Origin: Pseudomonas sp. PDM18
GTDB lineage: Bacteria > Pseudomonadota > Gammaproteobacteria > Pseudomonadales > Pseudomonadaceae
Length of the DNA stretch: 64,000 bases
Reading direction: 5' to 3'
NCBI RefSeq assembly: GCF_014852585.1
Contig: NZ_JACVBX010000003.1
Location: forward strand, 372,001-436,000
Below are positions 2,071-59,418 of this stretch, one piece after another (position 1 is the first letter of the stretch; each line of letters starts with the position of its first letter). Position numbers and translations under genes: made by a program. The notes below the pieces were generated by a model. That model saw only the letters and a program-made list of their open reading frames with translations, was not told the origin of the DNA and ran no database searches.

Positions 2071-2096
2071 GCCCCGGCAGACGCACCGTGTGGTAC

Positions 2097-2139
2097 CCGA
2101 GCCAGTCCATCGCCGCCCCCCGGCGTTGGGCTGGCTCGG
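2097..2139 (+). other. Inverted repeat between ggt and aauS
   Basis: CCGAGCCAG at 2097-2105 is perfectly complementary to CTGGCTCGG at 2131-2139 and starts 26 bases after the ggt stop. It could be a terminator or attenuator, but no T-run follows. Confidence 0.45.
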
Positions 2140-2192
2140 CCCCGGCGACTGTGCTGCAATGCGCTTCCAGCCCACTGCCGCCGCCGCTCACC

Positions 2193-4039
2193 GTGAAGCC
2201 ACGCCTCGTGCGCAACTACCTGTTGCCCTTCCTCCTGCTCCTGCTCACCCTGGGCTTCGGCTATGGCGGCTACCTGATCAGCGAAGGCGCCGGCACCCGC
2301 ACCCTGATCGAGACCGGCGAACGCCAGCTCGAACTGCACGCCCGTGGCGTGGAAAGCGAGATCAGCCGCTACACCTACCTGCCCAGCCTGCTGGAACTCG
2401 AAGGCAGCGTCAGCCGCCTGCTGGTGGACCCGACGCCGCTGCACCGCGACCGCGTCAACCATTACCTGGAAGGCCTCAACCGCCGCGCCGGCAGCCGCGC
2501 CGTGTACCTGCTGGACACCTCCGGCCGCGTGCTGGCCACCAGCAACTGGCAGGACGCCGACAGTTACCTGGGTGAAGACCTGTCCTTCCGCGCCTATTTC
2601 CAGGAAGCGGTGAACGGCCGCCCCGGACGCTTCTACGGCATCGGCAGCACCACCGGCGAGCCCGGTTACTACCTCGCCCACGGCCTCGTTCACGGCGGCA
2701 AGATCGTCGGCGTGGCGGTGGTCAAGGTGCGCATGGAATCCCTCGAAGAACGCTGGGAAAAGGCACGCCTGCAAGCCTTCGTCAGCGATGAGAACGGCAT
2801 CATCATCCTCTCCAGCGACCCGGCCCTGCGCCTGAAGGCCGTGCGCCCGCTCAGCGATCAGGACAAGGAACGCCTCGCGCGCAGCCTGCAATACTACTGG
2901 TGGGCGCTCAACGAATGGCAGCCGCTGTCGCGCAAACCATTGGGCGATGGCGTCGAAGAAATCAGCTTCCCGCCGGGCGAGCACGCCGACAGCCGCAAGC
3001 CGCTCAGCTACCTGATGCAGACGCGCAGCTTGAGCGACACGCCGTGGAACTTCACCCTGCTCACCCCGCTCGCCGACCTGCGCCGCGAAGCGCTGATGCA
3101 CGGCGTGCTGGCCGCCGTCGGCTTCGCCCTGTTCGCCTTCCTGCTGATCGCCTGGAACGAGCGGCGCAAGGTCATCGCCACCCGACTCGCCGCCCGTGAG
3201 GCGCTGGAGCAGGCCAACAACGCCCTGGAGCGGCGCATCGCCGAGCGCACCGCCGACCTGCGCGCCAGCAACCAGCACCTGCGCGAGCAGATCCGCGAAC
3301 GCCGACAGGCCGAAGACACCCTGCGCAAGGCCCAGGACCGGCTGGTCCAGGCCGGCAAGCTGGCGGTGATCGGGCAGATGTCCACTAGCATCGCCCACGA
3401 ACTCAACCAGCCGCTGGCGGCGCTGCGCACCCTGTCGAGCAACAGCGTGCGCTTCCTCGAACGCGGCAAGCTCGACGTCGCCAGCAGCAACCTCGAAGCC
3501 ATCGCCGAAATGGTCGACCGCATGGGCCGCATCACCGCCAGCCTGCGCGCCTTTGCCCGGCGCGCCGACGACCACGGCCAGGCCACCCTGAGCAAGGCTG
3601 TGGACGCCGCCGTGATGGTGCTCCAGGTGCGCCTCGCCGAAGTGCCGGTGACCCTGCACCGCGACTACCCCGACGCACAGCTGGCCATCGACCAGACGCG
3701 CCTGGAGCAGATTCTGGTCAACCTGATCGCCAACGCCCTCGACGCCATGCGCCCGCAGGACGACCGTCGCCTGTGGCTGGAAGGCCGCATCGAAAGCGAC
3801 GGCCACTACCGCCTGGTGGTCCGCGACAACGGCCCCGGCATCCCGCAGGATCAGCGCCAGCACCTGTTCGAACCCTTCTTCACCACCAAGCCCGGCGAAC
3901 TCGGCCTGGGCCTGGGCCTGACCCTTTCGGCCAGCCTCGCCACCGCCGCCGGCGGCAGCCTCGGCGTGGCCTACCCGGAGGCCGGCGGCACCGCCTTCGA
4001 GCTGCACCTGCCGCTGCTGCCCGCCATGGAGACCCCCGC

Positions 4040-4043
<4 letters not shown>
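2193..4043 (+). CDS. aauS: Sensor histidine kinase of the DctB/AauS type
   Basis: Membrane kinase that senses acidic amino acids outside the cell and phosphorylates AauR. GTG at 2193 is preferred because it places the first hydrophobic segment (NYLLPFLLLLLTLGFGYGGYL) at residues 8-28; an in-frame GTG at 2088 would add a proline-rich tail before it. Next come a periplasmic cache-like domain (about 30-300), a second membrane segment (around MHGVLAAVGFALFAFLLIAW), a coiled-coil linker rich in E, R and Q, the H-box IAHELNQPL with His402, and the N-box (LIANALDAM), G1 (DNGPGIP) and G2 (GLGLGL) ATP-binding motifs. The length (616 residues) is normal for DctB-like kinases. It overlaps the response regulator by 4 bases. 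The aauS name comes from the neighbouring aatP and ggt; DctB or MifS paralogues are similar. Confidence 0.85.
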
Positions 4044-5365
<1,322 letters not shown>

Positions 5366-25276: not shown

Positions 25277-27193
25277 CTACGACAGCTGCTTCCTGCTCAA
25301 CCCATGGCGGTTGAGCTTGCGGTACAGCGTATTGCGGCTGATGCCCAGCTGCTGCGCCGCGCGGCTGATGTGCCAGCGCTGCGCTTCGAGCACCTCCAGC
25401 AGCGCATTGCGCTCGGCCACACCGAGGGTGTCACCACCCTCCTCGGCCAAGGCGACCGGAGCCGCAGCGGCAGCCGGCGCACGGCGCAGGTCCGGCGGCA
25501 GGTCGGCCATCTGGATGCGGCCGCCGTCGCACAGCGCACAGAGCGTGCGCAGCACGTTGCGCAACTGGCGCACATTGCCCGGCCAGGGGAAGTCCAGCAG
25601 GTGCCGGCGTACGTCGTCATCCAGGCGCACGCTGCGGCCCTTGCTCTCCTCGGCCAGCAAGTGGTCGAGCAATGCGCCGCGGTCTTCGCGCTCGCGCAGT
25701 GGCGGCAGCGCCACCACCAGGCCGTTGAGGCGGTAGTAGAGGTCTTCGCGGAACTGCCCGGCGGCTACCAGTGCTTCCAGGTCACGGTGGCTGGCGCTGA
25801 TCAGGCGGATATCCACATCCTGCGGCTCACCACCGATGGGCACCACCTGGCGCTCTTCCAGCACACGCAGCAGGCGGGTCTGCAGCGCCAGCGGCATGTC
25901 GCCGATTTCGTCGAGGAACAGCGTGCCGCCGTCGGCCTGCTGCAGCTTGCCGCGCATGCCTTCCTTGCGCGCGCCGGTGAAGCTGCCGCCGCGATAGCCG
26001 AACAGCTCGCTCTCGATCAGGGTTTCGGGAATTGCCGCGCAGTTCAGCGCGACGAAGCTCTTGCCGGCGCGCTCGCCGCCCAGGTGCACGGCGCGGGCGA
26101 AAGCCTCCTTGCCGGTGCCGGTCTCGCCCTGCAGCAGCAACGGCACGTCGTGGGCGTAGACCTTCAGCGCACGGCGGAAATCGTGGGCCAGTTGCGGGTC
26201 GTCGATGCACAGGCCTTTCGCCAGGGGCGCGCGCGGCAGGACCGGCGCGGCGGCGATGGGTCGCTTGCCGCGCAGCAGCGCATACAGGGTGCGCCCGGCG
26301 TGGGTGCGCAGCGGCCAGCTGGCGTTGGGATGCGGGTCGGCGCGGCTGAACAGGTCGTCCAGCCGGCAATCGAAGCACTGCTCCAGCGAGCGGCCGATCA
26401 GGCTTTCCCGGCGGCTGCCGAGCAGGTTGATGGCGCTCTGGTTCGCCGCGCGGATGCGCCCGTCGCCGCCGAAGGCCAGCATGCCTTCGCTGAACAGCCC
26501 GAGGCCGTCGGGTTGCAGGTGGAAGCGCAGCAGCCACTGGTCCTCGAAATGGCGCAGGAAGTAGCAGCTCTCGATGGCCTTGGCCGACAGGTTGACCAGC
26601 GCCATGGTGTGGAACTGGCTCTGCCGCGACACGTCGCGGCGCGCCGAGGAAACGTCGAGCACCGCCAGCAGTTCGCCCTGCGGGTCGAATACCGGGCTGG
26701 CCGAGCAGGTCAGCCCGGTATGGCGGCTGCGGAAATGTTCGTCCTGGTGAATGGTCAGCGCCTGGCGCTCCACCAGGCAGGTGCCGATGCCGTTGGTGCC
26801 TTCGCGTGCCTCGCTCCAGTCGGCGCCGAGCCACAACCCGGCCTGCTCGAAGGTGCGCCGCTCGGCGGCTTCGCTGACGCAGTTGAGGATCACCCCACGG
26901 GAATCGGTGAGCAGCACCGCATGGCCGGCGCCGGACAGTTGCTGGTGCAGGCTGTTCATCTCGTCGCTGGCGATCTCCAGCACCTGCCGGTGGCGCTCGC
27001 GGACTTCGAGCATGCGCGCGTGTTCCAACACGGCCGGCGCCATGGGCTGCGCCGGGTCGAGGTGGTACTGCTCCAGGCAGCGCATCCAGGAGCGGGCGAT
27101 CGACGGGTCCGCACCGGGGGCACCGGCGGGGGCCTTGCCCTCGGCCACGGTCATGACCTGGCGGGCGTGGCGGCTCAAATCGTTGGCGCGCAT
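25277..27193 (-). CDS. eatR: Sigma-54 enhancer-binding regulator of ethanolamine use (EatR, AcoR-like)
   Basis: 638 residues. N-terminal GAF-type sensor (about 90-240, including [23 protein letters not shown] and [21 protein letters not shown]), then a PAS-like segment ([23 protein letters not shown]), the AAA+ domain with Walker [11 protein letters not shown], sigma-54 loop [10 protein letters not shown] and [15 protein letters not shown], and a Fis-type helix-turn-helix ([19 protein letters not shown]). This is the AcoR architecture. No receiver domain, so it probably binds a small inducer directly. ATG 27193 follows GGAGAA. It is divergent from exaC, whose leader carries a sigma-54 promoter at 27448 and TGTCACG repeats. 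The PAO1 equivalent (PA4021) controls ethanolamine catabolism with RpoN. Confidence 0.92.
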
Positions 27194-27324
27194 TCTTGTT
27201 GTTCTCCGCTTGGGGGACGGGGAGGCAGCCCCGGGTTCCAGCGAATGTTTGTAGGACAATTCGCAAGAACGCAGGACAGCATCCCCCACGCGCCCGCCCA
27301 ATGCAACGCTTGGCCGACCGTCAG

Positions 27325-46908: not shown

Positions 46909-46924
46909 ATTTCGTATACCATAT
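46909..46924. promoter_or_regulatory. GntR operator before the hydroxyproline GntR gene (site 1)
   Basis: ATTTCGTATACCATAT, two to three mismatches from the perfect palindrome ATTTCGTATACGAAAT found at 58466. It lies 31 bases before the GntR start codon, fitting autoregulation. Confidence 0.75.
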
Positions 46925-46954: not shown

Positions 46955-47629
46955 GTGCCGCTACGCAACGCCCCCAACCTGGGTATCGTCCCCTCCGCCT
47001 CGGAGACCATTGCCAAGCACCTGCGCGAGGCGATCATTTCTGGCCAGATGGCGGAAAACGAGCCAATTCGCCAGGACGACATCGCGCAGATCTTCAACGT
47101 CAGCAAGATCCCCGTGCGCGAAGCGCTCAAGCGCCTGGAAGCCGAAGGCCTGGTGGAGTTCCAGCGCAACAAGGGCGCGCTGGTGACGAAGATTTCCGAG
47201 CCGGAACTAGCGCAGATGTTCGAGGTGCGTGTCGTCCTCGAAGCACAGGCAATCCGCCTCGCGGTGCCCAACATGACCGCCGAGACGTTCGAGCGCGCCG
47301 AGCGTATCTGTGCCGAGTTCGTCGGCGAGGACGATGTCGGCCGCTGGGCAGAACTGAACTGGGAACTGCATGCCTGCCTCTATGAGCCGGCGCAGCGTCC
47401 CTACCTGGTTGGCCTGATCCGCTCGATCCACGACAAGCTGGAGCGCTACCTGCGCATGCAGATGAGCCTGTCCTCCGGCAAGGAACGCGCCGACCACGAG
47501 CACCATGACATCCTCGACGCCTGCCGTGCCGGCGATGGCGAGCTGGCAGCGCGCCTGCTGGAAGAGCACATCAACGGCGTCTGCCGCACGCTCTACGAGC
47601 ACCTGCCGAACCGGCCGACGCCGAGTTAG
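46955..47629 (+). CDS. GntR/FCD-family regulator, probable repressor of the hydroxyproline locus
   Basis: 224 residues, GTG start. The winged helix-turn-helix IAKHLREAIISGQMAENEPIRQDDIAQIFNVSKIPVREALKRLEAEGLVEFQ is followed by an FCD domain (ARLLEEHIN at the end, with ELNWELHACLYEPAQRPYL and DHEHHDILDACRAGD supplying the metal-binding residues). The repeated 16-bp palindrome at 46909, 52487 and 58466 is the expected shape of its binding site. HypR, a GntR protein, represses hydroxyproline genes in Sinorhizobium; a similar role here is inferred. The ligand might be hydroxyproline itself or a pathway intermediate. Confidence 0.88.
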   Translation: MPLRNAPNLGIVPSASETIAKHLREAIISGQMAENEPIRQDDIAQIFNVSKIPVREALKRLEAEGLVEFQRNKGALVTKISEPELAQMFEVRVVLEAQAIRLAVPNMTAETFERAERICAEFVGEDDVGRWAELNWELHACLYEPAQRPYLVGLIRSIHDKLERYLRMQMSLSSGKERADHEHHDILDACRAGDGELAARLLEEHINGVCRTLYEHLPNRPTPS

Positions 47630-47638
47630 ACAAAACTG

Positions 47639-47672
47639 TCCGCTGTGCCGATTTCATCATCGGCCCAGCGGA
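47639..47672. promoter_or_regulatory. Long hairpin between GntR gene and lhpA
   Basis: TCCGCTG-T-GCCGAT and ATCGGC-C-CAGCGGA form a 13-bp stem, interrupted by one mismatch, around TTCATC. No T-run follows on the plus strand, so a leader structure or regulator site is as likely as a terminator. Confidence 0.6.
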
Positions 47673-47741
47673 AAACCCTCAAGCTGCAATCCCCTCCTCG
47701 CGCCACCCTAGGGTCAACAACAAGACACCCCAGGTGGCAGC

Positions 47742-51334: not shown

Positions 51335-52114
51335 ATGTTCCGACAGCCAACCCGCTTCCCGATGCACGACCTGATCCCCCAGGGCGCCCGCGACCTGGAC
51401 AGCCTGCTGCAGACTTTCCGGCAGATAGCCCCGCTGCTCGATGCCATGCCCGGCGTGGTGTTCTTCATCAAGGACACCGCGGCGCGCTACGTGCTGGTCA
51501 ACCAGACCCTGGCACGGCGCTGTGGCGTGAAGGACGCCAGCGAACTGCTCGGACGCACCGCCGAGGACGTCTTCCCCTCGCGCTTCGGCCCGATCTACAC
51601 CGAGCAAGACCGCCGCGTGCTGGAAACCGGCGGCCAGCTCAGCGACCAGTTGGAGTTGCACCTCTACCCCGGCCGCCAGCCCGGCTGGTGCCTGACCCAC
51701 AAGCTGGCGCTGCGCGATGCGGACGGCGCAGTGATCGGCATGGCGGGGATTTCCAGCGACCTGCAGGCGGCGCAGTCCACGCACCCGGCGTACCAGCGCC
51801 TGGCGGCGGTGGATGCCTACATCCGCGAGCATTTCGACAAGCCGATCAACCTCGGCGAGTTGACCGAGCTGGCGGGGCTGTCCGTCGCCCAGCTGGAGCG
51901 CCACTGCAAGCGCATCTTCCAGCTCACCCCACGGCAGATGATCCACAAGGCGCGCCTGGGCGCGGCCACCCGCCTGCTGGGTGAAGACCTGCCAATCACC
52001 GAGATCGCCCTGCGCTGCGGCTACACCGACCACAGCGCCTTCAGCCGGCAGTTCCGCGCGCTAACCGGGCTGTCGCCGACGCAGTATCGCGAGTCCCAAT
52101 CCGCTACCAACTGA
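51335..52114 (+). CDS. lhpR: PAS-AraC regulator of hydroxyproline genes
   Basis: 259 residues. An N-terminal PAS domain (AMPGVVFFIKDTAARYVLVNQTLARRCGVKDASELLGRTAEDVFPS) and a C-terminal AraC domain (INLGELTELAGLSVAQLERHCKRIFQLTPRQMI; ITEIALRCGYTDHSAFSRQFRALTGLSPTQYR). This is the architecture I recall for LhpR of P. aeruginosa (PA1261), required for hydroxyproline catabolism. Its place between lhpE and the transport operon agrees. Start ATG 51335, or 51362. CCGAGTG repeats upstream of the transporter operon are possible binding sites. Confidence 0.88.
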   Translation: MFRQPTRFPMHDLIPQGARDLDSLLQTFRQIAPLLDAMPGVVFFIKDTAARYVLVNQTLARRCGVKDASELLGRTAEDVFPSRFGPIYTEQDRRVLETGGQLSDQLELHLYPGRQPGWCLTHKLALRDADGAVIGMAGISSDLQAAQSTHPAYQRLAAVDAYIREHFDKPINLGELTELAGLSVAQLERHCKRIFQLTPRQMIHKARLGAATRLLGEDLPITEIALRCGYTDHSAFSRQFRALTGLSPTQYRESQSATN

Positions 52115-52121
52115 CTGGACA

Positions 52122-52162
52122 CCGTAGGGCGGATAAAGCGTGCCGCTTTATGCGCCCTACGG
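52122..52162. repeat. GGCGGATAACG-type intergenic palindrome (copy 4, AAAGC variant)
   Basis: CCGTAGGGCGGATAAAGCG pairs with CGCTTTATGCGCCCTACGG across GTGC. It shares the GGCGGATAA-CGCCCTAC ends with copies at 6556, 12226 and 51272, but the stem core changed in a compensating way (ACGC to AAGC). Confidence 0.8.
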
Positions 52163-52201
52163 AGGCGATGCGGCGAACGCCCTGCGCACGTGCCTGGGCG
52201 C

Positions 52202-52283
52202 TTCGCGAGCAAGCTCGCTCCTACAGGTTTGCACCGGCGCTCTTCGTAGGACCGAGGGGGGCGCCTAGCCCTTGCTCGCGAAC
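52202..52283. repeat. REP-type pair with an insertion in the second arm
   Basis: The left unit TTCGCGAGCAAGCTCGCTCCTAC is intact. The right unit reads GTAGGACCGAG, then about 15 extra bases rich in G and C, then TTGCTCGCGAAC, so it is interrupted. Confidence 0.75.
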
Positions 52284-52312
52284 GCTTTTCCTCCCCACTC
52301 AGCGAAAGCTCG

Positions 52313-52458
52313 CCGAGTGCTCCCATAAGGGGCAGCGAAACACGCTGGTGCTTCATTCGGTAACAGCACTCGGAACTCGCCTACGACCTCTTGGGAACGC
52401 TCTCGCTGACCAATCCCTTCAAACACCGGGCTTTGCGACCCACGGGTCACGCCGAGTG
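52313..52458. promoter_or_regulatory. CCGAGTG repeats upstream of the transport operon
   Basis: CCGAGTGCT at 52313-52321, its exact inverse AGCACTCGG at 52365-52373, and CCGAGTG at 52452-52458 just before the -24 element. These might be LhpR or enhancer-protein sites; assignment is a guess. Confidence 0.4.
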
Positions 52459-52463
52459 ATTTC

Positions 52464-52479
52464 TGGCACATGCCTTGCT
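52464..52479 (+). promoter_or_regulatory. Perfect sigma-54 (-24/-12) promoter of the hydroxyproline transport operon
   Basis: TGGCACATGCCTTGCT has all consensus bases (TGGCAC, five bases, TTGCT) and the required GG-N10-GC spacing. The expected start point, about 12 bases after the GC, falls inside the GntR operator at 52487. Confidence 0.87.
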
Positions 52480-52486
52480 CTAAAAA

Positions 52487-52502
52487 ATATCGTATACGAA
52501 AT
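52487..52502. promoter_or_regulatory. GntR operator at the sigma-54 start point (site 2)
   Basis: ATATCGTATACGAAAT differs from the perfect palindrome at 58466 by one base (ATAT for ATTT). It covers the predicted transcription start of the transport operon. Confidence 0.8.
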
Positions 52503-52547
52503 CCATAATACAAAACTGCTGCACAACACTGACTCAGAGAGGCCCCA

Positions 52548-53354
52548 ATGAAATTCTCCCGAATTGCTCTAGCCCTCACCGCTGTGTTCATCGTCGGTCA
52601 GGCCCAGGCTGACAAACTCGACGACATCATCGAATCGGGCAAGCTGCGCTGTGCCGTGACCCTGGACTTCCCGCCGATGGGCTCGCGCGATGCGCAGAAC
52701 AACCCGGTCGGCTTCGACGTGGACTACTGCAACGATCTGGCGAAAGTGCTGGGCGTGACCGCCGAAGTCGTCGAGACGCCCTTCCCCGATCGTATCCCCG
52801 CGCTGGTTTCCGGCCGCGCCGACGTGATCGTCGCCTCCACCTCCGACACCCTGGAGCGCGCCAAGACGGTCGCCATGACCATCCCCTACTTCGCCTTCCA
52901 GATGGTGGTGCTGACCCGCGAAGACACCGGCATCACCAAGTACGAGGACATCAAGGATCGCCCGGTAGGAAATACCAGCGGCACCTACGAAGCCATCGCT
53001 CTGGAGAAGGACGTGAAGAAGTGGGGCGGCAAGGGCAGCTTCCGCGCCTACCAGAGCCAGAACGACACCATCCTCGCCGTCGCCCAGGGGCACATCGACG
53101 CCACCGTGGTGACCAACACCGTCGCCGCTTCCACGCTCAAGTCCGGTAAGTACAAGGGCCTGAAGGTCGTCGGTAACGCGCCCTACGTGATCGACTACGT
53201 CTCGCTGGCCGCCGCGCGCAACGAGTACGGCCTGATCCATTACCTCAACCTCTTCGTCAACCAACAGGTCCGCACCGGCCGCTACGCCGAGCTGTACGAG
53301 AAGTGGGTCGGCGGCGCCCCGGTCGATCTCACCGTTCCCCACGTGTACTACTGA
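52548..53354 (+). CDS. Periplasmic substrate-binding protein of the hydroxyproline ABC transporter
   Basis: 268 residues. Signal peptide ending VGQAQA at about residue 21. SBP_bac_3 signatures: KLRCAVTLDFPPMGSRDAQNNPVGFDVDYCNDLAKVLG (family start), VETPFPDRIPALVSGRADVIVAS and GNTSGTYEAIALEKD. First gene of the transport operon, followed 26 bases later by the AcnX gene and then two permeases and an ATPase. The position copies PA1260 of P. aeruginosa as I recall it. Likely ligand hydroxyproline, by context. Confidence 0.92.
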   Translation: MKFSRIALALTAVFIVGQAQADKLDDIIESGKLRCAVTLDFPPMGSRDAQNNPVGFDVDYCNDLAKVLGVTAEVVETPFPDRIPALVSGRADVIVASTSDTLERAKTVAMTIPYFAFQMVVLTREDTGITKYEDIKDRPVGNTSGTYEAIALEKDVKKWGGKGSFRAYQSQNDTILAVAQGHIDATVVTNTVAASTLKSGKYKGLKVVGNAPYVIDYVSLAAARNEYGLIHYLNLFVNQQVRTGRYAELYEKWVGGAPVDLTVPHVYY

Positions 53355-53367
53355 CAGCGGGTGCGAC

Positions 53368-55143
53368 ATGTCTTCGATGCAGGCTTCAAGGGTGCAGGAC
53401 TCACGCCTTACCGGGCGGGTCCTGATGGGGGGTAGCGCCGAAGGGGCGCTACTGTCCGCCGACACCGGGCTGAGCTTCTGGGGAGGCGTCGAGCCTTTCA
53501 CGGGCGAGGTCATCGACCGCCACCATCCGCTGTCGGGCAGCTTCCTGCCCGGCCGGGTGCTGGCGATTCCCAGCGGACGCGGCTCCTGTACCGGCAGCAG
53601 CGTGATGCTGGAGATACTGCTCAACGGCCACGCGCCGGCAGCGCTGCTGCTGGCCGAGCCGGACGAGATCCTCACCCTCGGCGTGCTGGTGGCTCAGGTG
53701 TTGTTCGGCCGCTCTATCCCGGTGCTGTGCCTGGGTCGCGAAGGTTTCAAGCAGTTGTCCGCGGGTGGCTGGGCCCGTGTCGAAGACGGTCAGGTAATAC
53801 TCAGCGCCGAGCGTCCTGCCGATGATTGGCAGGGCGTGATGGCCAGCGATGCCGGCCCGATACCGGAAGGCCTGGCGTTGAATGCAGGCGACCACGAGCT
53901 GCTGGACGGCAAGCACGGCAAGGCCGCCCAGGCCGCCATGCAGATCGTCCTGCGCATGGCCGCGCTACAAGGCGCGAAGGATTTGCTCGATGTCGCCCAG
54001 GCGCACATCGACGGCTGCATCTATACCGGCCCCGCGAGCCTGCGCTTCGCCCGCCAGTTGGCGGACTGGGGCGGCAAAGTGAAAGTGCCGACCACCCTCA
54101 ATTCCATCTCCGTGGATCACCGCCGCTGGCGCGAGTTAGGCGTCGACAAGGCCTTCGGCGAACCCGCCGCTGCGCTGGGCGATGCCTACATGGAGATGGG
54201 CGCGCAGATGAGCTACACCTGCGCGCCCTACCTGCTGGACAGCAAGCCGAGCCTTGGCGAACAGGTGGTCTGGGCCGAGTCCAACGCCGTGGTGTACGCC
54301 AACAGCGTGCTTGGCGCGCGGACCCTGAAGTACCCGGATTACCTCGATATCTGCATCGCCCTCACCGGCCGCGCGCCGAACGTCGGCAGCCACCGCGACG
54401 AAGGCCGGCTGGCGACGCTGCAGATTGATGTCGAACTGCCGGCCGCACACGACGAATCGATCTTCCCACTGCTCGGCTACCACATCGGCGAGCTGTGCGG
54501 CTCGCGCATCCCGGTGGTCGACGGCCTGCAGCCGCTGGCGCCGGACAGCGATGCACTGAAAGCCTTCGGCGCGGCCTTCGCCACCACCTCCGCCGCGCCG
54601 ATGTTCCATATTGCCGGGGTCACCCCGGAAGCGCCGGACGCCGCCACCGCCCTGGGCAACAAGGCGCCGCTGCAGCACCTGCGCGTCACCCCGGCAGACC
54701 TGGTCGCCTCCTGGCGTGAACTGGACCACGCCAGCGAACCGACCGTGCAACTGGTCTCGCTGGGCAACCCGCACTTCTCCGCCAGCGAATGCGCGGACCT
54801 GGCGAAACTGGTCGCCGGGCGCCGCAAGCATCCGGGCGTCGCGCTGGTCATCACGCTGGGCCGCGCCGTGCAGGAGAATGCCCGCGCCGCCGGTGACGTG
54901 AAGGTGCTGGAAGACTTCGGCGCGCAACTGCTCAACGACACCTGCTGGTGCATGATCGGCGAACCGGTGATCCCGCCGGCCTGCACCACGCTGATGACCA
55001 ACTCGGCGAAGTACGCCCACTACGGTCCGGGCCTGGCCGGGCGCCAGGTGCATTTCGGCAGCCTTGCCGCGTGCGTCGAGGCGGCCTGCAGCGCTCGCGC
55101 CGATGGCGGCGTGCCCAGCTGGCTGAGCGAGGGGGTACGCTGA
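53368..55143 (+). CDS. Aconitase X fusion (DUF126-DUF521), probable cis-3-hydroxy-L-proline dehydratase
   Basis: 591 residues. The first ~140 residues are the swivel-like small domain (DUF126: TGRVLMGGSAEGALLSADTGLSFWGGVEP, HPLSGSFLPGRVLAIPSGRGSCTGSSVMLE). Residues ~165-575 are the large AcnX domain (DUF521: QIVLRMAALQGAKDLLDVAQAHIDGCIYTGPASLRFA, GAQMSYTCAPYLLDSKPSLGEQVVWAESNAVVYANSVLGART). Archaeal and some bacterial homologues are two separate proteins. Single-chain AcnX proteins of this sort have been shown to dehydrate cis-3-hydroxy-L-proline to pyrroline-2-carboxylate, using a metal/cluster site with the Cys and Asn of these blocks. The next gene overlaps by one base. The role in 3-hydroxyproline use is inferred from family and context. 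Confidence 0.9.
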   Translation: MSSMQASRVQDSRLTGRVLMGGSAEGALLSADTGLSFWGGVEPFTGEVIDRHHPLSGSFLPGRVLAIPSGRGSCTGSSVMLEILLNGHAPAALLLAEPDEILTLGVLVAQVLFGRSIPVLCLGREGFKQLSAGGWARVEDGQVILSAERPADDWQGVMASDAGPIPEGLALNAGDHELLDGKHGKAAQAAMQIVLRMAALQGAKDLLDVAQAHIDGCIYTGPASLRFARQLADWGGKVKVPTTLNSISVDHRRWRELGVDKAFGEPAAALGDAYMEMGAQMSYTCAPYLLDSKPSLGEQVVWAESNAVVYANSVLGARTLKYPDYLDICIALTGRAPNVGSHRDEGRLATLQIDVELPAAHDESIFPLLGYHIGELCGSRIPVVDGLQPLAPDSDALKAFGAAFATTSAAPMFHIAGVTPEAPDAATALGNKAPLQHLRVTPADLVASWRELDHASEPTVQLVSLGNPHFSASECADLAKLVAGRRKHPGVALVITLGRAVQENARAAGDVKVLEDFGAQLLNDTCWCMIGEPVIPPACTTLMTNSAKYAHYGPGLAGRQVHFGSLAACVEAACSARADGGVPSWLSEGVR

Positions 55144-55808
55144 TGTTCAACTACAGCTTCCACTGGCGTTCCGCCTTCAAGGCCCTGCCGGACATGCTCG
55201 GCGGCGCCTGGGTGACCCTGGAGACAGCCGCGCTGTCGATGATCCTGGGCGTGCTCATCGCGCTGCTGCTGACCGTCATGCGGCAGATGAAGAACCCGCT
55301 GCTCAAGGGCTTCGCCGATACCTGGGTGTCCATCGCGCGCAACACCCCGTCGCTGTTCCAGATCTACATCCTCTACTTCGGCCTGGGTTCCTTCGGCCTG
55401 CACGTCAGCTCCTGGGTGGCGCTGCTGGCGGGGATCACCTTCAACAACGCCGGCTACCTCGCGGAGAACTTCCGCGGCGGCCTCAAGGCCGTGCCGGACA
55501 CCCAGATGCGCGCCGCGCGCTCGCTGGGCATGAGCGCCTTCCAGGCGTACCGGATGATCATCGTTCCGCAGCTGCTGCGCATCGTCTATTACCCGCTGAC
55601 GAACCAGATGGTCTGGGCGGTGCTGATGACCTCGCTGGGCGTGGTGGTGGGCCTGAACAACGACCTCACCGGCGTGACCCAGGACTTCAACGTGCGCACC
55701 TTCCGCACCTTCGAGTACTTCGCCCTGGCCGCGGTGCTCTATTACATCATCGCCAAGGTCATCGTGGCGGTCGCCCGCCTGTTGAGCTGGCGGTTGTTCC
55801 GCTACTAG
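55143..55808 (+). CDS. Polar amino-acid ABC transporter permease 1
   Basis: 221 residues with five membrane helices in the HisMQ fold. ALPDMLGGAWVTLETAALSMILG is the usual opening. EAA-loop region: FRGGLKAVPDTQMRAARSLGMSAFQAYRMIIVPQLLR, which contacts the ATPase. ATG 55143 overlaps the AcnX stop (TGATG). Forms the membrane channel with the next gene. Confidence 0.94.
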   Translation: MFNYSFHWRSAFKALPDMLGGAWVTLETAALSMILGVLIALLLTVMRQMKNPLLKGFADTWVSIARNTPSLFQIYILYFGLGSFGLHVSSWVALLAGITFNNAGYLAENFRGGLKAVPDTQMRAARSLGMSAFQAYRMIIVPQLLRIVYYPLTNQMVWAVLMTSLGVVVGLNNDLTGVTQDFNVRTFRTFEYFALAAVLYYIIAKVIVAVARLLSWRLFRY

Positions 55809-55819
55809 GAGAAGCACGC

Positions 55820-56470
55820 ATGTTTTCCACGAGCTTCACCGTCAATGACCTTATGTTCCTGCTGCAAGGGGCCTGGGTCACCGTCAAGCTGACCCTCGGC
55901 GCCATGCTCATCGGCACCCTCGCCGGCCTCGTGCTGGGCTGGCTGCGCGCCGCCCTGCCACGGGCCACGATGCCGGTCGGCTGGTTCCTCGACATCTTCA
56001 GAAGCGTGCCGCTGCTGATCCAGTTCGTGCTGTTCAACTCGCTCAAGAGCATCGTCGGCCTGAACTGGAGCGCCTTCACCGTCGGCTGCCTGGTACTGGG
56101 CGTCTACGCGGCGGCGTTCTGCACCGAGATCATCCGCAGCGGCATCCTCGCCGTCGGCCCGAACATCCGCCGCGCCAGCCGCTCGCTGGGCCTGACCTAC
56201 TGGCAGGACCTGCGCTACATCGTGCTACCGCTGGCGGCGCGGGTGGCCTTCCCCGGCTGGCTGAACCTGGTGCTGGGGGTGATGAAGGACACCGCGCTGG
56301 TCATGTGGATCGGCATCGTCGAACTGCTCCGCGCCTCGCAGACCATCGTGACGCGCATCCAGGAACCCCTGCTGGTGCTGTGCATCGCCGGGGTCATCTA
56401 TTACCTCATGAGTTGGGTCGTGGCGCGCCTCGGCGCCCGGCTGGAACAAAGGTGGCAGGAAAATGATTGA
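55820..56470 (+). CDS. Polar amino-acid ABC transporter permease 2
   Basis: 216 residues, HisMQ type. DLMFLLQGAWVTVKLTLGAMLIGTLAGLVLGWLR near the start, and the EAA loop IRSGILAVGPNIRRASRSLGLTYWQDLRYIVLPLAARVAFPGW (family-typical). It starts after GGAG 11 bases beyond permease 1 and overlaps the ATPase gene by 8 bases. Confidence 0.94.
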   Translation: MFSTSFTVNDLMFLLQGAWVTVKLTLGAMLIGTLAGLVLGWLRAALPRATMPVGWFLDIFRSVPLLIQFVLFNSLKSIVGLNWSAFTVGCLVLGVYAAAFCTEIIRSGILAVGPNIRRASRSLGLTYWQDLRYIVLPLAARVAFPGWLNLVLGVMKDTALVMWIGIVELLRASQTIVTRIQEPLLVLCIAGVIYYLMSWVVARLGARLEQRWQEND

Positions 56471-57185
56471 AATCGACAACGTGCACAAAGCCTATGGCGA
56501 CCTGGAAGTGGTCAAGGGCGTGAGCCTGACCGTGAAGAAGGGCGAAGTGGTCTCGATCATCGGCGGTTCGGGGTCGGGCAAGTCCACCCTGCTGATGTGC
56601 ATCAACGGCCTGGAGCCGATCCAGCGCGGCAAGATCCGCGTCGACGGCATCGAGGTCCACGCCAAGACCACCGACCTGAACAAGCTGCGACAGAAGATCG
56701 GCATCGTCTTCCAGCAGTGGAACGCCTTCCCGCACCTCACCGTGCTGGAGAACGTCATGCTCGCCCCGCGCAAGGTACTCGGTCTCTCCAAGGAAGAAGC
56801 CGAGGCGATGGCGGTGAAGCAGCTCAGGCACGTAGGCCTGGGCGACAAGCTCAAGGTGTTCCCGCAGAAGCTCTCCGGCGGCCAGCAGCAGCGCATGGCG
56901 ATTGCCCGAGCGCTGGCCATGTCGCCGGACTACATGCTGTTCGACGAAGCCACCTCGGCGCTCGATCCGCAGCTGGTGGGCGAGGTGCTCGACACCATGC
57001 GCCTGCTCGCCGAAGAGGGCATGACCATGGTCCTGGTGACCCACGAGATCCGCTTCGCCCGCGACGTGTCCGACCGCGTGGCGTTCTTCCGCGAAGGGTT
57101 GGTGCACGAGATCGGCACGCCGGAGCAGGTGATCGGCAACCCGCAGCGGGCGGAGACGGCGGAGTTCCTGAGGTCGGTGAACTAG
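56463..57185 (+). CDS. Polar amino-acid ABC transporter ATPase
   Basis: 240 residues. Walker A GGSGSGKST, Q-loop VFQQWNAFPHLTVLENV, signature LSGGQQQRMAIARALA, Walker B YMLFDEATSALDP, H-loop LVTHEIRFARD. The Walker B glutamate is followed by ATSALD rather than PTSALD, a common variant. It powers the hydroxyproline importer and overlaps permease 2 by 8 bases. Last gene before a repeat cluster. Confidence 0.95.
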   Translation: MIEIDNVHKAYGDLEVVKGVSLTVKKGEVVSIIGGSGSGKSTLLMCINGLEPIQRGKIRVDGIEVHAKTTDLNKLRQKIGIVFQQWNAFPHLTVLENVMLAPRKVLGLSKEEAEAMAVKQLRHVGLGDKLKVFPQKLSGGQQQRMAIARALAMSPDYMLFDEATSALDPQLVGEVLDTMRLLAEEGMTMVLVTHEIRFARDVSDRVAFFREGLVHEIGTPEQVIGNPQRAETAEFLRSVN

Positions 57186-57210: not shown

Positions 57211-57330
57211 CCCCCCTCCCTAGCCCTCTCCCGCACGCGGGAGAGGGGTTCGAGCGGTGCAGGATAAAACCACAGCGTCAGCCGGCACGACCTGCCCCCC
57301 TCTCCCTCTGGGAGAGGGCTGGGGTGAGGG
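57211..57330. repeat. CCCTCTCCC-type palindromes (copy 2, pair)
   Basis: Two hairpins (57211-57249 and 57289-57330) of the CCCTCTCCC/GGGAGAGGG type flank GCGTCAGCCGGCACGA. The same GTCAGCCGGCACG core recurs between the two hairpins at 59425-59555. Confidence 0.85.
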
Positions 57331-57361
57331 AAGGCAGGCGGCACAGATCGAGGAGACAGCA

Positions 57362-58393
57362 ATGCGTTCGAGCAAGATCATCCATGTGGTCAGTTGCCAT
57401 GCCGAGGGCGAGGTCGGCGACGTCATCGTCGGCGGCGTCGCCCCGCCGCCGGGCGACACCGTGTGGGCGCAGTCGCGCTTCATCGCCAGCGACAACGTGC
57501 TGCGCAACTTCGTCCTCAATGAACCGCGCGGCGGCGTGTTCCGCCACGTAAACCTGCTGGTGCCGCCGAAAGACCCGCGCGCGCAGATGGCCTGGATCAT
57601 CATGGAGCCGGCCGACGTGCCGCCCATGTCCGGCTCCAACTCGCTGTGCGTCAGCACCGTGCTGCTCGACAGCGGCATCCTGCCGATGCAGGAGCCGCAA
57701 ACGCGCCTGACCCTGGAAGCCCCCGGCGGGCTGATCGAGGCCGTGGCCGACTGCAAGGACGGCAAGGTCCAGCGCGTGGAAGTACGCAACCTGCCCTCCT
57801 TCGCCGACAAGCTCGACGCCTGGATCGAAGTGGAAGGTCTGGGCTCTCTGCAAGTGGATACCGCCTACGGCGGCGACAGCTTCGTGCTCGCCGACGCCCA
57901 TTCTCTCGGTTTCACCCTGCATGCCTCGGAGGCTGCCGACCTGGTCGCCACCGGCCTGAAGATCACCCAGGCGGCGAACCAGCAGCTGGGCTTCCAGCAC
58001 CCGGAAAACCACGACTGGGCGCACATCTCCTTCTGCCAGCTGACCGCGCCGGTGGAACGCATCGACGGCGTACTGCACGGCCGCAACGCGGTGGTCATTC
58101 GCCCCGGCAAGATCGACCGTTCGCCCTGCGGCACCGGCTGCTCGGCACGCATGGCAGTGCTGCACGCCAAGGGCCAGTTGAAGGACGGCGAACGCTTCGT
58201 CGGCCACTCGATCATCGATTCCAAGTTCCACTGCCGCATCGACGGCCTCACCAGCGTCGGCGGCAAACCGGCGATCCATCCCTGCATTTCCGGTCGTGCC
58301 TGGATCACCGGCACCCACCAGCACCTGCTCGACCCGTCCGATCCGTGGCCAGAAGGCTACCGGCTCTCGGACACCTGGCCGAACGGTTACTGA
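57362..58393 (+). CDS. Proline-racemase-superfamily enzyme with Ser/Cys active site
   Basis: 343 residues. The fold is clear from [17 protein letters not shown] at the start, [11 protein letters not shown] (substrate/loop residues) and [14 protein letters not shown] with Cys256. The first catalytic Cys is replaced by Ser90 in MSGSNSLCV. In this superfamily Cys/Cys enzymes are racemases/epimerases, Cys/Thr enzymes are trans-3-hydroxy-L-proline dehydratases, and Ser/Cys members are epimerase-like but less studied. So 3- or 4-hydroxyproline 2-epimerase or proline racemase activity is possible; dehydratase is less likely. It has the position of PA1255 in P. aeruginosa. ATG 57362 follows GAGGAGA. 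Confidence 0.88.
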
Positions 58394-58500: not shown

Positions 58501-59418
58501 ATGAGCAAGAAGGTCAATTGGAGTGGCGTGTTCCCCGCGGTGACCACTCAGTTCAACGACGATTTCTCGGTCAACCTGGAAGCCACCCACAAGGTGATCT
58601 CCAACCTGGTGCGCGACGGCGTCTCGGGCCTGGTGGTGTGCGGCAGCGTCGGTGAGAACACCTCGCTGTCCATCGAAGAGAAGATGGCCGTCACCGAAGT
58701 CGCCAAGGACGCCTCCGGTGGCCGCGTGCCGGTGATCTGCGGCATCGCCGAGTTCACCAGCCATGGCGCCTCCCAGGTGGCCAAGGCGGTGCAGAAGGTC
58801 GGCGTCGACGGCATCATGGTGATGCCCGCGCTGGTCTACTCCTCCAAGCCCCACGAGACCGCCGCGCACTTCCGCAGCGTGGCCACCAGCACCGACCTGC
58901 CGGTGATGGTCTACAACAACCCGCCGATCTATAAGAACGACGTCACCCCGGACATCCTCATCTCCCTGGCCGACTGCGAGAACATCGTCTGCTTCAAGGA
59001 CAGCTCCGGCGACACCCGCCGCTTCATCGACGTGCGCAATGAAGTGGGCAACCGCTTCATCCTCTTCGCCGGCCTCGACGACGTGGTCCTGGAGAGCATC
59101 GCGGTGGGCGCCGAAGGCTGGATCTCCGGCATGTCCAACGTCTTCCCGCAGGAAGGCGAGACCATCTTCCGCCTGTGCAAGGCCGGCCGCTATGAAGAAG
59201 CCATGCCGATCTACGAATGGCTGATGCCGATCCTCCACCTCGACGCCCGCCCGGACCTGGTGCAGTGCATCAAGCTCTGCGAAGAGATCGCCGGTCGCGG
59301 CACCGCCCTCACCCGCCCGCCGCGCCTGGCGCTGCAGGGCTCCGACCGCGAGCACGTGGAGACGATCATGGCCAAGGCCCTGGCGAACCGGCCGAAGCTG
59401 CCGGATGTGGGTCTTTAA
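58501..59418 (+). CDS. lhpC: 1-pyrroline-4-hydroxy-2-carboxylate deaminase (DapA family)
   Basis: 305 residues. A DHDPS-type barrel: WSGVFPAVTTQFNDDFSVN, VCGSVGENTSLSIEEK (the phosphate/carboxylate loop), VYNNPPIYKNDV with the catalytic Tyr region, and NIVCFKDSSGDTRRF with the Schiff-base Lys. Deaminates the pyrroline product of LhpBFE to alpha-ketoglutarate semialdehyde. ATG 58501 follows GGAG. It is the first gene after the perfect GntR palindrome, so repression there would also silence lhpG. Confidence 0.92.
   Translation: MSKKVNWSGVFPAVTTQFNDDFSVNLEATHKVISNLVRDGVSGLVVCGSVGENTSLSIEEKMAVTEVAKDASGGRVPVICGIAEFTSHGASQVAKAVQKVGVDGIMVMPALVYSSKPHETAAHFRSVATSTDLPVMVYNNPPIYKNDVTPDILISLADCENIVCFKDSSGDTRRFIDVRNEVGNRFILFAGLDDVVLESIAVGAEGWISGMSNVFPQEGETIFRLCKAGRYEEAMPIYEWLMPILHLDARPDLVQCIKLCEEIAGRGTALTRPPRLALQGSDREHVETIMAKALANRPKLPDVGL

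Follow-up and report, generated by a model that had tools for sequence, protein, structure and literature searches.

The nearest described counterpart of the promoter reported here is that of hutU in Pseudomonas, where a sigma-54 promoter serves an operon for amino-acid catabolism and is controlled by activators bound far upstream and by an overlapping GntR-family repressor. It is activated by NtrC and CbrB, and in P. aeruginosa the HutC footprint overlaps the sigma-54 site (PMC12977541, PMC8871633). A second related group is formed by the HypR regulons. For many groups of Proteobacteria, hydroxyproline genes are predicted targets of the GntR regulator HypR, which is predicted to regulate its own gene as well in 32 of 46 genomes, and its role was shown genetically in S. 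meliloti (PMC5343134); in P. aeruginosa, a hydroxyproline iModulon bears the label HypR (PMC9023270).

In this study, we analysed a 64,000-nucleotide window of the Pseudomonas sp. PDM18 genome, in which the promoter of an ABC transporter substrate-binding protein gene (sbp) appears to share with hutU the combination of sigma-54 element, putative far-upstream activator sites and overlapping GntR-family operator. It differs from hutU in its putative repressor, which has an FCD domain and is not of the HutC type, in its operator (TCGTATACGA versus TGTA-N2-TACA), in its enhancer sequence and in its substrate, hydroxyproline. The sbp promoter would be a second example of the hutU-type arrangement, with a repressor from another GntR subfamily. 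A search of the same genome for urocanase (PF01175) gave no match, so hutU seems to be absent from this Pseudomonas assembly. Like the HypR regulons, the window has a GntR regulator of hydroxyproline genes, apparent autoregulation and hyp targets; sigma-54 is unmentioned in the available text of PMC5343134, whereas here the operator lies on a predicted sigma-54 start. A search of literature passages returned no description of the sbp promoter; one may be given in the principal publication on LhpR (Li and Lu 2016), which lay outside that search. It also returned no paper on PA1260 together with RpoN, and the terms sought were not found in the available main text of the transcription-factor atlas PMC8041468.

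The promoter region comprises the following elements:

52318..52334, no strand assigned: box A, putative enhancer, TGCTCCCATAAGGGGCA (comparative)
52349..52365, no strand assigned: box B, putative enhancer, TGCTTCATTCGGTAACA (comparative)
52464..52479, + strand: sigma-54 -24/-12 element TGGCACATGCCTTGCT (pattern match and conservation)
52486..52502, no strand assigned: putative GntR (HypR-type) operator AATATCGTATACGAAAT, with the perfect palindrome core TCGTATACGA at 52490-52499
52489..52492, + strand: predicted transcription start, placed from the -12 position (about 12 bases past the GC)

The -24/-12 element matches TGGCAC-N5-TTGCW with zero mismatches, in agreement with the sequence-only reading, which had called it consensus-perfect. 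The -24 GG lies at 52465-52466 and the -12 GC at 52477-52478. With up to one mismatch allowed, the window contained three matches against 2.56 expected, of which only 52464-52479 was perfect. Across the 6.4 Mb genome, 18 perfect matches were found versus 3 for a reversed control pattern, which makes the motif alone moderate evidence. Two other perfect sigma-54 sites of this genome (L081 and L096) have NtrC-like dyads with one mismatch at 213 and 89 bp upstream, respectively. Counting twelve bases on from the C of the GC leads to position 52490, where TCGTATACGA begins, so the predicted start does fall inside the palindrome, as had been proposed. At the sequence level, the earlier observation of a predicted sigma-54 promoter with a start-overlapping palindrome was confirmed.

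The decisive evidence came from comparison. The locus set consisted of the best 80 of the 503 SBP relatives found, plus the window; the closest SBP orthologs among these 80, with 97–99% identity, belonged to P. nicosulfuronedens, P. nitroreducens and their relatives. GG-N10-GC was located 8–10 bases before the operator in all 74 operator-bearing sequences from Pseudomonas, Stutzerimonas or kin (73 of the best 80 loci and the window), whereas 86 control offsets averaged 0.5% and never exceeded 4%, and the pairing is therefore more than chance. Information content over 44 nonredundant sequences was near 2 bits in the columns of GGCAC, TGC and AATATCGTATACGAAAT, and 36 upstream columns averaged 0.29. 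The gap from -12 to the operator was almost fixed: 8 bases in 62 of 92 distinct sequences, 9 in 29 and 10 in one. Of 298 genomes sampled from the family, 44 carried the composite pattern, one copy each; the reversed pattern gave 7 matches, all in one genus. Within the genus of the window, 19 of 25 sampled genomes carried the composite, and the other six had no SBP ortholog at E 1e-60.

The regulator gene and two further operator copies were located on either side of the operon:

46912..46921, no strand assigned: TCGTATACCA, copy of the operator with one mismatch, upstream of gntR (motif search)
46955..47629, + strand: gntR, GntR + FCD regulator, probable HypR (Pfam; name from PMC5343134 and PMC9023270)
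58469..58478, no strand assigned: copy of the operator with a perfect core, upstream of the DapA-like gene, whose ATG is at 58501 (motif search)

The decamer TCGTATACGA is present at three places in the 6.4 Mb: at the sbp promoter, before the DapA-like gene and on another contig; the last was rejected as a further target because it sits inside a 211-aa ORF. The gntR gene was found within 65 of the 81 sequences, the window included. For 13 of the remaining 16, the genomes were searched (L025, L071 and L079, at contig ends, were left out); 11 had an ortholog elsewhere, 73–80% identical, and two had none. All 76 sequences with a gntR ortholog, in the locus (65) or elsewhere in the genome (11), had the operator, and both sequences without the gene lacked it. 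With up to two mismatches, the operator also preceded gntR in 61 of 65 cases, suggesting that gntR is autoregulated, and the DapA-like gene in 65 of 67, but lhpA in only 6 of 69. This co-occurrence and the copies before gntR and the DapA-like gene support the palindrome as a GntR operator, as the sequence-only reading had suggested. The locus also shows the features of a HypR regulon, namely a GntR regulator with an FCD domain whose gene lies among hydroxyproline genes and is itself preceded by an operator, and the GntR protein of the window is probably HypR.

The two sequences without gntR (L009 and L010) come from related strains whose genomes hold no ortholog (best match 32% identity). They lack the operator, the -24/-12 element and boxes A and B alike; as these are close relatives, the co-loss was probably a single event. 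Five Halomonas/Vreelandella loci have a gntR ortholog (77–79%) and a ATCGTATCCGAA operator without an adjacent -24/-12 element. In L067, GG-N10-GC is not adjacent to the operator and stands about 130 bases before it.

Boxes A and B form an element absent from the sequence-only reading, about 146 and 115 bp upstream of -24, respectively. Box B was identified with the relaxed pattern TGCTCC-N5-GTAACA, which it therefore fits in all 65 nonredundant loci. Box A was taken as the best dyad-like 17-mer ahead of box B; in most loci it reads TGYTCC-N5-GGGGCR, and in 55 of the 65 its start is 30–32 bp before that of box B, with ties broken towards 31; an unbiased count placed TGYWYC at 30–32 bp in 42 of the 65 and at 28 bp in 7. 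The P. graminis sub-group carries GTGCATCNATGAAGCAC instead. Box B was present in 87 of 92 distinct upstream sequences, 83–172 bp from the -24 GG. Its distances to -24 in 61 nonredundant loci fell into classes of approximately 93, 105, 115.5, 127, 137, 159, 168.5 and 172 bp, giving a vector strength of 0.81 at a period of 11.0 bp and 0.74 at 10.5 bp. None of 5000 uniform simulations reached 0.81, and the same held with each distance counted once, although the 61 loci are related, so that the simulation overstates their independence and gives no strict probability. Seven further loci (five with a degenerate box B and two new) had phases of 3.5, 1.5, -0.5, 0.5, 0.5, -0.5 and 0.5 bp; six were within 1.5 bp of phase, and L011 was 3.5 bp out. 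IHF-like matches in the spacer were found in 24 of 65 loci, versus a mean of 13 and a maximum of 19 in shuffled sequences.

Helical phasing is expected of an enhancer that acts by looping and thus provides independent support for the sigma-54 promoter. Boxes A and B are accordingly described as a putative enhancer, the likely activator site. Tandem NtrC sites of glnAp2 lie about three turns apart, and the sbp boxes resemble a glnAp2-type NtrC enhancer in this spacing, in their dyad-like 17-bp form and in lying more than 100 bp upstream. They differ in sequence: the glnAp2-type half-sites are TGCACC/GGTGCA and those of sbp TGYTCC/GTAACA. The only perfect copy of box B in the PDM18 genome is the lhp one; at two mismatches or fewer, 12 copies were found versus 29 for the reversed control, giving no sign of a wider box B regulon.

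The operon downstream consists of the following genes:

52548..53354, + strand: sbp, ABC transporter substrate-binding protein, first operon gene, ATG 52548 (domain match)
53368..55143, + strand: lhpI, cis-3-hydroxy-L-proline dehydratase (aconitase X; NF051439, 865.7 bits, cut-off 700)
55143..55808, + strand: ABC transporter permease 1 (context and ORF)
55820..56470, + strand: ABC transporter permease 2 (context)
56463..57185, + strand: ABC transporter ATPase (translation)
57257..58393, + strand: operon gene, listed ORF start, family match from residue 36 (NF047722, 647.8 bits, cut-off 550)

According to the family profiles, it encodes a transporter with cis-3- and trans-3-hydroxy-L-proline dehydratases, which corrects the assignment to 4-hydroxyproline alone. 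Upstream of sbp lies lhpR; gntR is 5.6 kb away and is followed by the 4-hydroxyproline epimerase gene lhpA.

The sequences themselves show the promoter elements and how well they are conserved, the nearly constant gap from -12 to the operator, the phasing of box B and the operator–gntR co-occurrence; binding, repression, looping and a ligand at the sbp promoter are our inference. We consider it probable that the operon serves hydroxyproline transport and 3-hydroxyproline dehydration under a two-input switch, with an enhancer-binding protein as one input and GntR release as the other. Sigma-54 polymerase would bind the -24/-12 element, and an enhancer-binding protein would dock on the tandem 17-bp boxes and be brought into contact with it by DNA looping. 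The HypR-type GntR/FCD repressor, bound over approximately +1 to +10, would block polymerase binding or melting. A metabolite of the hydroxyproline pathway would release HypR, after which the enhancer-bound activator could trigger melting, so that expression would require both nutrient status and substrate. HypR may also act at its own gene and at the DapA-like gene through the operator copies. Among the points counted against this switch is the operator sequence: FadR-subfamily operators follow GTM-N0-1-KAC, with TKGT/ACMA boxes being commoner (PMC4494728), and TCGTATACGA conforms to this GntR/FadR-type palindrome with a TCGT/ACGA core, unlike the commoner outer boxes.

Of the double lock in the sequence-only reading, the sigma-54 promoter, the predicted start within the palindrome and the GntR operator stand on sequence and comparison. 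Its premise that sigma-54 promoters are controlled only by activators was too strong, given that HutC, a GntR-family protein, overlaps the sigma-54 site of hutU (PMC12977541, PMC8871633). The sbp promoter is a widely conserved case of a metabolite-sensing repressor apparently placed on the start point of an activator-controlled promoter class. If the two-input switch is true, hydroxyproline use in Pseudomonas is tied to nitrogen or carbon status.

As to the activator, PF00158 was matched 31 times in the genome, with 23 strong matches. None is among the lhp genes, for which the earlier statement that the locus encodes no enhancer-binding protein holds, but the 64-kb window contains two:

2088-5365, + strand: two-component pair judged by eye to be DctB/DctD-like, a sensor kinase plus a response regulator that carries a sigma-54 activation domain (PF00158 protein at about 4040-5365; 46 kb from the promoter)
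25277-27301, - strand: 674-aa enhancer-binding protein judged by eye to be AcoR-like (PF00158)

NtrC is our tentative first choice. Box A has the GC-N11-GC form described for NtrC sites of P. stutzeri (PMC8443478), and the tandem spacing shared with glnAp2 also speaks for NtrC. Compared with the NtrC consensus GCACCA-N3-TGGTGC (PMC12977541), with 12 fixed positions, box A of the window has 2 mismatches and box B 5, the latter counting against NtrC; over the 65 loci the ranges were 2–7 for box A (best of five offsets) and 3–6 for box B. The Ldh_2-family gene, which we take to be lhpH, is convergent and lies outside the sbp operon. Expression of lhpH was 16.9- and 9.7-fold lower in ntrB and ntrC mutants of PA14 (PMC8264665), a result in favour of NtrC that is indirect for sbp because of that position. 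That the activator is some other enhancer-binding protein is a real possibility, and CbrB, alone or with NtrC, is a more doubtful candidate. CbrB is described as exclusive to pseudomonads, with GTAACA as its subsite (PMC6296734); box B contains one such subsite, and the sbp sigma-54 promoter is likewise confined to pseudomonads in the sample examined, which counts for CbrB. The three-subsite pattern TGTTAC-N12-14-GTAACA-N15-19-GTAACA (PMC8871633) was not found: within 220 bp upstream of the promoter of the window there is one GTAACA and no TGTTAC. The crcZ promoter of the same genome resembles sbp in having a sigma-54 element downstream of GTAACA subsites, but carries three subsites at set spacing (TGTTAC, GTAACA, GTAACG), whereas sbp has a single GTAACA in a 17-bp dyad-like box. 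Of these two candidates NtrC is the likelier, and by analogy with hutU the two may overlap.

Beyond the single locus, we regard as speculative, and rather unlikely in its full form, a portable two-key cassette of phased tandem enhancer, sigma-54 promoter and HypR operator 8–10 bases from -12. Its layout would have stayed rigid across Pseudomonas and its kin, and it would have been placed ahead of either sbp or lhpC, with Halomonas-type loci keeping the operator without adjacent sigma-54 and two strains having exchanged the cassette for an lhpA-type element. In two genomes of another genus (G003 and G020; loci L181 and L182), the composite lies directly before lhpC (DapA-like), with lhpR upstream and gntR next downstream; box B is 115–116 bp from -24 and the -12-to-operator gap is 10. 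This occurrence also counts in favour of the two-input switch itself. No SBP ortholog was found in G003 at E 1e-60. Such natural variants (enhancer distance in helical steps, repressor-gene loss, operator without sigma-54, cassette before another gene) make the logic testable.

A role for LhpR concerns two further features:

47643..47684, + strand: a further conserved element, upstream of lhpA, and a candidate promoter region under LhpR control (comparative; assignment to LhpR tentative)
51335..52114, + strand: lhpR, PAS + AraC-type regulator (Pfam; name by context)

The possibility that LhpR binds boxes A and B as the specific activator, either alongside an enhancer-binding protein or in its place, agrees with its activation of lhp genes in P. 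aeruginosa (PMC6608401) and with gene distribution: lhpR adjoins in most loci, six Pseudomonas loci without a nearby copy have an ortholog elsewhere (62–64% identical), and in Halomonas-type genomes the boxes are missing together with any lhpR ortholog. We nevertheless consider it unlikely. LhpR has no AAA+ domain, and the boxes track the sigma-54 promoter rather than lhpR, which L009 and L010 retain (81%) without boxes or sigma-54 promoter. A search upstream of lhpA in 69 loci found neither box; a different conserved element, CTGTGCCGATTTCRTCAT...AAANCCNTCAAGC (CTGTGCCGATTTCATCATCGG... in the window, about 97 bp upstream of the gene), occurs there in 42 of 81 sequences under a strict pattern. 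We infer that this element belongs to LhpR. In L009 and L010 it stands upstream of sbp, where other loci have the sigma-54 promoter. In L057 it lies 308 bp before sbp with the sigma-54 cassette also present, so the two are not mutually exclusive. LhpR as a direct activator at sbp is disfavoured accordingly; the sequence-only reading had listed some role for LhpR among its suggestions.

It is similarly improbable that the GntR protein activates or holds the sigma-54 closed complex ready rather than simply blocking. Plain blocking would not demand so nearly fixed a gap of 8, 9 or 10 bases, and such rigidity may reflect trapping of the closed complex by HypR at the melting site, beyond excluding polymerase. 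However, HypR of S. meliloti and S. coelicolor is described as a repressor (PMC5343134 among the sources), and Halomonas-type loci hold a near-identical operator without an adjacent -24/-12 element.

Blocking at a sigma-54 promoter is also preferred over an unused -24/-12 element with a sigma-70-type promoter driving the operon under GntR control. GntR operators usually occur at sigma-70 promoters and Halomonas-type loci manage without an adjacent -24/-12, but this alternative is very improbable given the strict conservation of GG-N10-GC and its spacing, the enhancer-like phasing relative to -24/-12 and a scan of 52110-52560 that found no sigma-70-like site. A sigma-70 scan of two Halomonas-type promoters gave no coding-strand match.

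The lhpH promoter was compared in only four sequences, and the best -24/-12 match of the window has three mismatches there. In three close relatives (L055, L058 and L076), a two-mismatch GG-N10-GC was observed at the same position upstream of the Ldh_2-family gene, where a second sigma-54 promoter of the pathway is possible.
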